Source: Flavobacterium sp. GSB-24 (GTDB lineage: Bacteria; Bacteroidota; Bacteroidia; Flavobacteriales; Flavobacteriaceae). From it: DNA of 64,000 nt. The stretch covers positions 186,001-250,000 of the forward strand of contig NZ_AP027043.1 in the NCBI RefSeq assembly GCF_027924665.1. Reading direction: 5' to 3'. Under the pieces are notes generated by a model. That model ran no database searches. It had not been told where the DNA came from and worked only from the letters and a program-made list of their open reading frames with translations. Positions 15,333-52,123 of this stretch are shown here, piece after piece. A program made the translations under genes and the position numbers. Numbering within the stretch: the stretch's first letter is position 1; each line of letters opens with the position of its first letter.

Positions 15333-15361
15333 TTTGTAAACAAAAATTATTTATATCTTTG
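15333..15361 (+). promoter_or_regulatory. Promoter of tRNA-Pro
   Basis: TTTG (15333-15336), a 17-bp spacer, and TATCTTTG (15354-15361) match the Bacteroidota -33/-7 consensus TTTG-N17/18-TAnnTTTG exactly. It lies 33 bp before the mature tRNA 5' end. Confidence 0.8.
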
Positions 15362-15394: not shown

Positions 15395-15469
15395 CGGGGT
15401 GTAGCGTAGCCCGGTTATCGCGCCTGCTTTGGGAGCAGGAGGCCGCAGGTTCGAATCCTGCCACCCCGA
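15395..15469 (+). tRNA. tRNA-Pro (TGG anticodon)
   Basis: 75 nt fold into a full cloverleaf: acceptor CGGGGTG/CACCCCG, D arm GCG...CGC, anticodon arm CCTGC-TTTGGGA-GCAGG with anticodon TGG, five-base variable loop, T arm GCAGG-TTCGAAT-CCTGC and discriminator A. The 3' CCA is not encoded. It is the first and only complete copy of a tandem array in which its 3' two-thirds recur three more times. Confidence 0.96.
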
Positions 15470-15470
15470 C

Positions 15471-15508
15471 AAAAGTCTTTTCATTTATTTGGAAAGACTT
15501 TTTTTTTT
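15471..15508 (+). terminator. Terminator after tRNA-Pro
   Basis: AAAGTCTTT (15472-15480) pairs with AAAGACTTT (15493-15501), loop of 12, then a T run. It is part of the 128-bp unit and recurs, with small changes, at 15600-15637 and 15727-15764. Confidence 0.85.
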
Positions 15509-15533
15509 GCATCAATTTCAAATATAAATAACA

Positions 15534-15637
15534 CGCAACGGTTATCGCGTCCCGATTGAAAATCGGGAAGACCGCAGGTTAGAATCCTGCCACCTCGATG
15601 AAAATCTTTTCATTTATTTGGAAAGACTTTTTTTTTT
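15534..15637 (+). pseudogene. tRNA-derived degenerate copy 1 with terminator
   Basis: CGGTTATCGCG (from 15539) is the D-arm segment of tRNA-Pro, then an anticodon-like arm CCCGA-TTGAAAA-TCGGG (GAA in the anticodon position) and a T arm in which TTCGAAT has become TTAGAAT, followed by CACCTCG. The 5' acceptor strand is replaced by unrelated AT-rich bases, so no cloverleaf closes. A terminator follows at 15600-15637. Not a functional tRNA. Confidence 0.75.
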
Positions 15638-15663
15638 GCTTCCATCTCAATTATAAATACGCT

Positions 15664-15764
15664 AAAAGGTTATCGCGTCCCGATTGAAAATCGGGAAGAC
15701 CGCAGGTTCGAATCCTGCCACCCCGACAAAAGTCTTTTCATTTATTTGGAAAGACTTTTTTTTT
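15664..15764 (+). pseudogene. tRNA-derived degenerate copy 2 with terminator
   Basis: Starts with GGTTATCGCG at 15668, 128 bp after copy 1. The T arm (GCAGG-TTCGAAT-CCTGC) and 3' acceptor strand CACCCCG are perfectly kept, but the 5' acceptor strand is absent. The anticodon arm is again CCCGA-TTGAAAA-TCGGG. The terminator at 15727-15764 is identical in stem to that after the true tRNA. Confidence 0.75.
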
Positions 15765-15789
15765 GCATCAATCTCAAATATAAATAACA

Positions 15790-15857
15790 CGCAACGGTTA
15801 TTGCGTCCCGATTGAAAATCAGGAAGACCGCAGGTTCGAATCCTGCCAACCCTGACG
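15790..15857 (+). pseudogene. tRNA-derived degenerate copy 3
   Basis: Starts with CGGTTATTGCG at 15795, again 128 bp after copy 2. The anticodon stem has a mismatch (CCCGA/TCAGG), the T arm is intact, and the 3' acceptor strand has an inserted base (CAACCCTG). The unit's own terminator has been replaced by an unrelated one at 15858. Confidence 0.72.
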
Positions 15858-15892
15858 AAAAAAAGCTCTAACTTCTGTTAGAGCTTTTTTTT
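15858..15892. terminator. Terminator between tRNA array and beta-helix protein gene
   Basis: AAAAGCTCTAAC and GTTAGAGCTTTT pair around a TTCT loop, with A run left and T run right, so it can act for the array (plus) and for the beta-helix gene (minus). Confidence 0.88.
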
Positions 15893-30648: not shown

Positions 30649-30741
30649 CTGTTATATTTTAGATTTTTTAATTTAGTCCCGAAGCCTCGGGATAGATTTG
30701 TAACTACAAATCTACAATCTAAAATCTAAAGTCTAAAATTT

Positions 30742-52095: not shown

Positions 52096-52123
52096 GGTCC
52101 CGATTCAATCGGGACTTTTTTTT
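52096..52123 (+). terminator. Rho-independent terminator
   Basis: GTCCCGAT and ATCGGGAC pair with a TCA loop, followed by eight T. It ends the Nif3/zinc-ribbon operon. Confidence 0.92.

Follow-up and report, generated by a model that had tools for sequence, protein, structure and literature searches.

The array of truncated tRNA copies behind the tRNA-Pro(TGG) gene of Flavobacterium sp. GSB-24 is probably an ORF-less relic of a selfish, homing-type unit that parasitises tRNA genes. Complete units pair two parts: a gene beside a tRNA gene, encoding a GIY-YIG nuclease of ~80 aa from the branch that includes UPF0213 and SLX1, and a broken version of the neighboring tRNA, with a GC-rich hairpin substituted for one arm. 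The window analyzed here is a 64-kb stretch of a 5.35-Mb, two-contig genome, and tRNA-Pro(TGG) is the one tRNA gene called in it (Table 1).

Table 1. Features of the tRNA-Pro(TGG) array, in window coordinates
Feature	Position	Strand	Basis
Putative Bacteroidetes-type promoter of tRNA-Pro, TTTG-N17-TATCTTTG	15333–15361	+	pattern match
Intact tRNA-Pro(TGG)	15395–15470	+	ARAGORN; Rfam tRNA, 69.2 bits
Terminator after intact tRNA-Pro	15471–15508	+	terminator scan, sequence
Copy 1 (tRNA-Pro D-arm 3' half, hairpin replacing the anticodon arm, T-arm and 3' end)	15540–15599	+	sequence
Copy 1, hairpin	15550–15568	+	sequence
Copy 1, T-arm and 3' end	15573–15599	+	sequence
Terminator after copy 1	15605–15636	+	sequence
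Copy 2	15668–15727	+	sequence
Copy 2, hairpin	15678–15696	+	sequence
Terminator after copy 2	15728–15763	+	terminator scan, sequence
Copy 3 (decayed 3' end)	15796–15856	+	sequence
Copy 3, hairpin with one C·A mismatch	15806–15824	+	sequence
Array-closing terminator, unlike the others	15860–15892	+	sequence

ARAGORN, Rfam, TRF and the sequence itself together bear out the array described in the original prediction, with an intact gene followed by three 5'-truncated tRNA-Pro copies at a spacing of 127–128 bp; TRF reports it at 15443–15861 (period 128, 3.2 copies, score 694, the top of 15 rows for the window). The D-arm 3' half recurs at 15413, 15540, 15668 and 15796, so that the predicted period holds and the unit starts given earlier (15412, 15539, 15667 and 15795) are each one base off. 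Every copy keeps the D-arm 3' half, the T-arm and the 3' acceptor strand, and alignment leaves tRNA positions 1–7 and most of the D-arm 5' side unrecognisable, which agrees with the predicted loss of the 5' acceptor strand. The anticodon arm is swapped for TCCCGATTGAAAATC[G/A]GGA in all three copies, as proposed, but the stem is not uniform, the third carrying the mismatch. The GAA that had been read as occupying the anticodon position does not represent an anticodon of tRNA-Phe; it belongs to a hairpin loop of 3–7 nt whose sequence is variable in relatives. We likewise rejected a swapped-in tRNA-Phe anticodon arm as the source of the hairpin, since loop length and sequence vary in relatives and the stem of the tRNA-Phe of this genome differs. 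The copies do not score as functional tRNA genes, the first unit alone being called by ARAGORN and Rfam, their decay is visible in the alignment, and no ORF of at least 60 aa lies within the array.

TTTG/TAnnTTTG is the Bacteroidetes promoter consensus. The predicted promoter pattern is present upstream of the tRNA and carries no weight alone, a flexible-spacer version occurring 10 times in the window against 12.4 expected by chance. A near-identical terminator follows three of the four units, as stated in the original prediction, namely the tRNA and copies 1 and 2; the matching stretches are 15476–15503, 15605–15632 and 15733–15760, and the terminator scan flags two of the three. The terminator behind the intact gene resembles those at many tRNA-Pro sites of the genus that have no extra copies.

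Comparison of one unit with 199 genomes of the same genus, a check that had been proposed with the array, revealed two kinds of tRNA-Pro array. ORF-less arrays resembling that of the window occur, for example, in G103, G159, G075 and G053. The other kind consists of units of 346–371 bp (526 bp in G036), each with a frame of ~80 aa that encodes a GIY-YIG nuclease (PF01541); G022 has five such units and G117 three, the middle one truncated, and further loci were found in G007, G110, G108, G183 and G088. In one listing of ORF-bearing Pro loci, the anticodon arm of every broken copy has given way to TCCCG-loop-CGGGA or TCACGC-loop-GCGTGA. The hairpin of the window matches, letter for letter, that of the ORF-bearing units of G005, whose protein falls in a second Pro-linked group near the Val group of the protein tree; the window terminator differs from that of the G005 units. 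Since hairpin, site and tRNA piece agree, we tie the window array to the nuclease family, although the array itself holds no nuclease gene. No empty tRNA-Pro site was found among the close relatives of the window that were checked (G006, G015 and G008): G006 (L236) has a hairpin-swapped 5' half ahead of its tRNA-Pro and, behind it, an ORF-less copy in which two arms bear hairpins, G015 has a single decayed copy at tRNA-Pro, and at the G008 locus the tRNA-Pro query string gave no match.

An empty and an occupied site could be compared in full for one pair of genomes. The tRNA-Pro of G049 is plain, and the corresponding site of G108 holds a unit. The left alignment between the two (1060 bp, 89.2%) ends at tRNA position 26 and the right one (1632 bp, 84.1%) begins at position 6; between them, G108 carries an intact tRNA-Pro, a different terminator and a GIY-YIG gene. 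In both outer tRNA parts of G108 the hairpin replaces the anticodon arm, and the displaced 3' piece is followed by the same 62 nt, without a difference, as the tRNA of G049. From the two alignments and the identical 62 nt, we conclude that the original tRNA was split around the anticodon arm and that a replacement was brought in. Target sequence on both sides of the insert, together with empty and occupied alleles, is what a homing element should leave; other candidate pairs are weaker, mostly short terminator matches. In classical homing sites the insert destroys the target. The intact tRNA-Pro of occupied G108, by contrast, has the same sequence as that of empty G049, so that a nuclease cutting it should cut its own host and resistance would have to come from elsewhere, for example from weak expression, from a particular state of the DNA or from the hairpin. 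For this reason we call the units homing-type, not proven members of the free-standing homing endonuclease elements.

Two layouts recur. In one, an intact tRNA is followed by a terminator, the GIY-YIG gene, a broken tRNA (from about position 6–46 to 76) and a second terminator; in the other, the tRNA promoter is followed by a broken tRNA (positions 1–28 or 1–51), the GIY-YIG gene and the intact tRNA, in some cases with a 3' piece after the intact tRNA (L095, L097, L098, L102 and L105). By parsimony, the side switched at most 10 times within the Pro clade, an upper figure because the script misread the side of L125, L149 and L150.

The genome of the window itself contains GIY-YIG genes intact behind tRNA-Ala(GGC) and tRNA-Phe. 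The tRNA-Ala(GGC) locus has one nuclease gene, with three hairpin-swapped tRNA-Ala copies upstream at 84–85 bp and one broken copy downstream, and the tRNA-Phe locus has four units at a period of 380–381 bp with the hairpin placed in the T-arm. A further tRNA locus carries hairpin-swapped tRNA-Pro and tRNA-Arg copies, and a protein search of the genome found no nuclease gene there. ARAGORN calls "tRNA-Lys(ttt)" at L052 (945–1021, G000:C1) and at L184, on tRNA-Arg-derived copies whose anticodon arm is a TCCCGATTTTTAATCGGGA hairpin; these are probably false tRNA calls. Elsewhere on G000:C1, L079 (158600–159300) and L080 (430200–430900) are MITE-like inverted repeats with GTCATTTC...GAAATGAC ends and TCCCGAGGCTTCGGGA on both arms, and L058 and L070 (G000:C1:21333 and 454560) both show TCCCGGCCGCAGCCGGGA within identical 60-nt flanks, which we presume may adjoin rRNA operons.

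To delimit the family, we took proteins matching at 59 bits or more. The loci comprised the best 80 of at least 445 named, 30 from a 61-genome sample of the genus, 40 further matches from that sample and stretches obtained earlier. Among the 165 distinct genes collected in this way (including the best 80 of at least 445), a called tRNA stands no more than 220 bp away in 115 cases. Another 25 genes are farther from one, and 24 of these have a neighboring unit at their locus; for the other 25, no tRNA was called in the stretch examined, and 14 of these genes are near a stretch end. In six tRNA-less stretches inspected by eye, tRNA pieces were present beside the gene in all six. L198, L203, L212 and L213 have a near-side tRNA 3' piece and no intact tRNA called within ~1.5 kb; these units may have lost their tRNA or moved off it. 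At 45–50 bits, just under the family threshold, 15 further GIY-YIG loci form a separate tree group (SH-aLRT 99), and no tRNA is called at any of them. Linkage of the nuclease gene to its presumed target gene, as expected of a homing element, was found in the family and at none of these 15 loci. Matches at E 1e-13 or better occur in 34 of 61 Flavobacterium genomes (hand count). In a sample of the phylum, 96 of 148 genomes match at E ≤ 1e-3, a figure that includes out-of-family GIY-YIG proteins; at 29 further phylum loci, 23 genes are within 120 bp of a tRNA, 4 are at 127–241 bp and 2 are near contig ends without one. We found no family relatives in viral contigs or plasmids, and one tblastn query gave no family match in phage records.

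The matches listed cover 12 tRNA isotypes: Pro, Ala, Phe, Val, Asn, Asp, Met(cat), Arg, Lys, Gly, Thr and Ser. On the protein tree, a quick tree of 82 columns with many weak forks, the isotype label requires 8 changes for 8 states; across all groups there are 23 label changes against a shuffled mean of 75.8, with none of 200 shuffles as low. Ala, Phe and Asp each form a single supported group, and Asn a single, weakly supported one. Labels were set by hand to Pro for L125, L149 and L150 and to Arg for L184, where the nearest called tRNA is a neighbor or a false call, and 21 rows without a tRNA were kept unlabelled. As judged from this tree, clades of the nuclease family are largely isotype-specific. 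With dN/dS at 0.035–0.21 in all pairs with computable dS (27 of 38), the family is, by this measure, under purifying selection.

The protein (83 residues; structure model pLDDT 90.4) matches PF01541 at 51.5–59.2 bits against a cut-off of 22.6, with Y5, Y16, G18, R26 and E62 invariant in A1 and A2; it thus has the domain with conserved Tyr, Arg and Glu that marks the GIY-YIG superfamily. Its nearest solved relatives by sequence are UPF0213 (1zg2, E 1.3e-10) and SLX1 (~3e-5), and matches to TIGR01453 are weak (24–26 bits against a cut-off of 56). Fold comparison also places UPF0213 and SLX1 nearest, with I-TevI at rank 9–11 (E 0.08–0.16), and at this size the protein, unlike I-TevI, has no separate DNA-binding domain. 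Because UPF0213 and SLX1 come ahead of I-TevI among solved structures, the comparison suggests that DNA structure may matter for the predicted nuclease.

The position of the hairpin follows the isotype lineage. It replaces the anticodon arm in Pro, Ala and Val units and the T-arm in Phe, Arg(tcg), marine Pro and Asn units (L191, an Asn unit, has it in the variable region), and in Met and Asp units it occupies the 3' anticodon stem and variable loop; it recurs in broken copies of other isotypes too, and a few copies have hairpins in two arms. Among Pro-type copies with a T-arm, perfect 6-bp stems were found in 29 of 30 distinct hairpins at ORF-bearing loci, after three false rows had been left out (L145 once, L208 twice), and in 14 of 17 at ORF-less loci, compared with 0.69% of random windows; because the search pattern prescribes the final A, pair 1 of these stems is in part preselected. 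Mismatches in the stems were few. Stem pairs 3 and 6 of the Pro-type copies vary on both sides.

The hairpin motif was also counted genome-wide. TCCCG...CGGGA occurs 109 times in the genome of the window against 3 for the reversed pattern. Of 61 genomes of the genus, 56 have more of it than of its control (hand count), as do 9 of 12 hosts outside that sample (not G201, G202 and G208). Within the window, such palindromes lie for example at 52098–52114 and 30677–30692; in the whole genome some are followed by T-runs and look terminator-like, and others sit inside inverted-repeat elements. The hairpin of the marine units, TCACG...CGTGA, was clearly above control in none of the same 12 host genomes, the highest ratios being 8 to 6 and 8 to 7; in the five of them whose units carry it, the counts against control were 12 and 13 (L111), 8 and 25 (L126), 12 and 18 (L131), 11 and 11 (L154) and 7 and 12 (L157). 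We therefore rejected the idea that the hairpin is a mere resident genome-wide repeat: units carry hairpins even where the hairpin is otherwise rare. A TCCCG hairpin lies within 200 bp of 117 of the 165 collected family genes and of 3 of the 15 out-of-family GIY-YIG loci, the latter counting against our reading of the hairpin. By eye, hairpin number was also compared with nuclease number per genome; G006 has 78 hairpins and no strong nuclease match.

These observations fit a homing-type cycle. The predicted nuclease would cut one arm of the tRNA gene in an allele without the unit: the anticodon arm in Pro, Ala and Val lineages, the T-arm in Phe, Asn and marine Pro lineages, and, in those of Met and Asp, the variable loop together with the 3' side of the anticodon stem. 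Repair of the break would draw on the occupied allele, in which tRNA 5' and 3' sequence flank the nuclease gene, and the recipient would acquire this gene and an intact replacement tRNA while the halves of its own tRNA remain as scars. Recombination would then produce tandem arrays, and in the window the nuclease gene would have been lost, leaving three scars. The hairpin might, at a guess, mark the cut site and protect the displaced copy from cutting or recombination. That the protein cuts the tRNA gene and that homing spreads the unit are what we infer from the linkage to the target, the flanking target parts, the replacement gene, the displaced native part, the isotype clades and the purifying selection; the window array would accordingly represent a nuclease-less relic with decaying copies. 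Several observations count against this reading: the unchanged intact tRNA-Pro in occupied G108, a protein that lacks a separate DNA-binding domain and resembles structure-selective SLX1, a window array that contains no nuclease gene and whose terminator is unlike that of the G005 units, and the frequency of TCCCG...CGGGA throughout the genome. A bolder version, which we put forward tentatively and consider somewhat less probable than its negation, is that the units form a class of selfish DNA found across the phylum Bacteroidota. Their mini-nucleases, SLX1-like and structure-selective, would home into essential tRNA genes, every lineage being tied to a single isotype. The actual mark would be a DNA hairpin, an arm able to form a cruciform, placed where the displaced half of the tRNA was cut and acting as a signal for recognition, immunity or amplification.

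The idea in the original prediction that lies closest to the evidence is that of an integration scar. tRNA 3' ends serve as integrase sites, and 3' pieces repeat downstream of the intact tRNA, as repeated ordinary integration there would predict. We nevertheless consider integrase-type scars very unlikely, given that 5' halves are also found upstream, that an internal arm is swapped for a hairpin and that the ~350-bp ORF-bearing units, as far as read, hold a lone GIY-YIG nuclease gene between the pieces. The scar part of the idea thus stands. On the sequences compared here, however, the scars were most likely left not by an integrase acting on the 3' end of the tRNA but by a unit with a GIY-YIG nuclease, which splits the tRNA in an internal arm and supplies a substitute. 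The copies could instead be inert tandem duplications of the tRNA 3' part that decayed by chance, with the nuclease genes as bystanders: the window copies are decayed, no nuclease gene is left among them, and ORF-less arrays are common. Chance decay would, however, hardly account for the perfect stems in ORF-less and ORF-bearing copies alike at frequencies far above random windows, or for the same replacement in unrelated isotypes, and inert duplication is unlikely as the origin of the array; it may describe its present state.

Two further explanations assign the copies a role as RNA. In a toxin–antitoxin or guard system, the GIY-YIG protein would cleave the cognate tRNA molecule and the swapped copies, as RNA, would serve as decoys or antitoxins, much as in type III systems. 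Isotype clades and adjacent tandem tRNA-like copies would be equally expected here, and the broken copies can fold hairpins as RNA; but a toxin need not adjoin the gene of its target, the nuclease gene is repeated in each unit too, the tRNA halves flank the insert on its outer sides as in homing, in the layout with the nuclease gene downstream a terminator stands between it and the tRNA, and the nearest solved relatives are UPF0213 proteins and DNA-processing SLX1. We give this explanation a small chance. Smaller still, to the point of being highly improbable, is that of a stable functional small RNA, whether rtT-like or a decoy for tRNA enzymes, both of which had been suggested. For copies 1 and 2, folding predictions retain both the hairpin and the T-arm (z about −1.8 for each copy), whereas the best predicted fold of copy 3 has lost the hairpin; a terminator stands directly behind the tRNA, the interior of the array has no TTTG/TAnnTTTG pattern, the copies have no 5' acceptor strand, and Rfam matches nothing in the array beyond the first unit. 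These suggestions are therefore unsupported, and the relic of a homing-type unit remains the reading that we prefer.

Among known systems, the E. coli tyrT/rtT repeats, in which the tRNA 3' end is repeated downstream of the tRNA, resemble the window array in that respect; we know of no nuclease gene or hairpin swap in them, and we found nothing relevant to this parallel in the open-licence literature. UPF0213 and SLX1 are nearest to the Bacteroidota nuclease by sequence and fold. SLX1 is described as a repair enzyme that partners SLX4, its relatives are structure-selective GIY-YIG nucleases, and to our knowledge no selfish linkage to tRNA genes is known for UPF0213 or SLX1. Enzymes of the I-TevI type share the catalytic fold, but the Bacteroidota units have neither the DNA-binding domain nor an intron.

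The closest parallels in logic come from other genomes. In the text available from PMC3630166, fungal mitochondrial mORFs with a replacement gene end are described in atp6, atp9, cox2 and nad3 of Glomus and in atp6 of Allomyces. Like the tRNA units, they combine an endonuclease gene inside a host gene with a new gene end, and the native end is displaced downstream, where it matches an uninvaded relative; they differ in residing in protein genes of fungal mitochondria, the enzyme of the atp6 case being a LAGLIDADG enzyme (PMC3630166). The Bacteroidota units, unlike mORFs, occupy bacterial chromosomal tRNA genes, on the 5' or the 3' side, swap a hairpin into the displaced part and form tandem arrays. 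SegB of T4/T6, a free-standing homing endonuclease of the GIY-YIG type encoded in the tRNA region of the phage, is similar in that its gene lies beside tRNA genes of many isotypes and that DNA cleavage and recombination drive tandem amplification of the tRNA-plus-nuclease segment; it is phage-encoded, and the text available from that source does not describe a hairpin-swapped or split tRNA (PMC13096335). In the corresponding text of a GIY-YIG survey (PMC1564403), tRNA appears only in connection with a methyltransferase fusion and in references. We found no description of tRNA-linked GIY-YIG units in Bacteroidota in the open-licence literature, and an earlier one may exist elsewhere.

tRNA genes are essential and strongly conserved, which makes them ideal yet dangerous targets of selfish DNA. 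The units would show how a minimal nuclease can split tRNA genes and persist by supplying a spare copy, and that it does so in each of 12 isotypes independently. They account for odd pieces of tRNA in Bacteroidota genomes and probably also for some false tRNA calls, in which hairpin loops are read as anticodons. They also raise the questions of whether tiny SLX1-like nucleases recognize DNA structure in vivo and how a homing-type element coexists with its own intact target. If the structure-selective reading were true, homing would here be guided by DNA structure, not by sequence.
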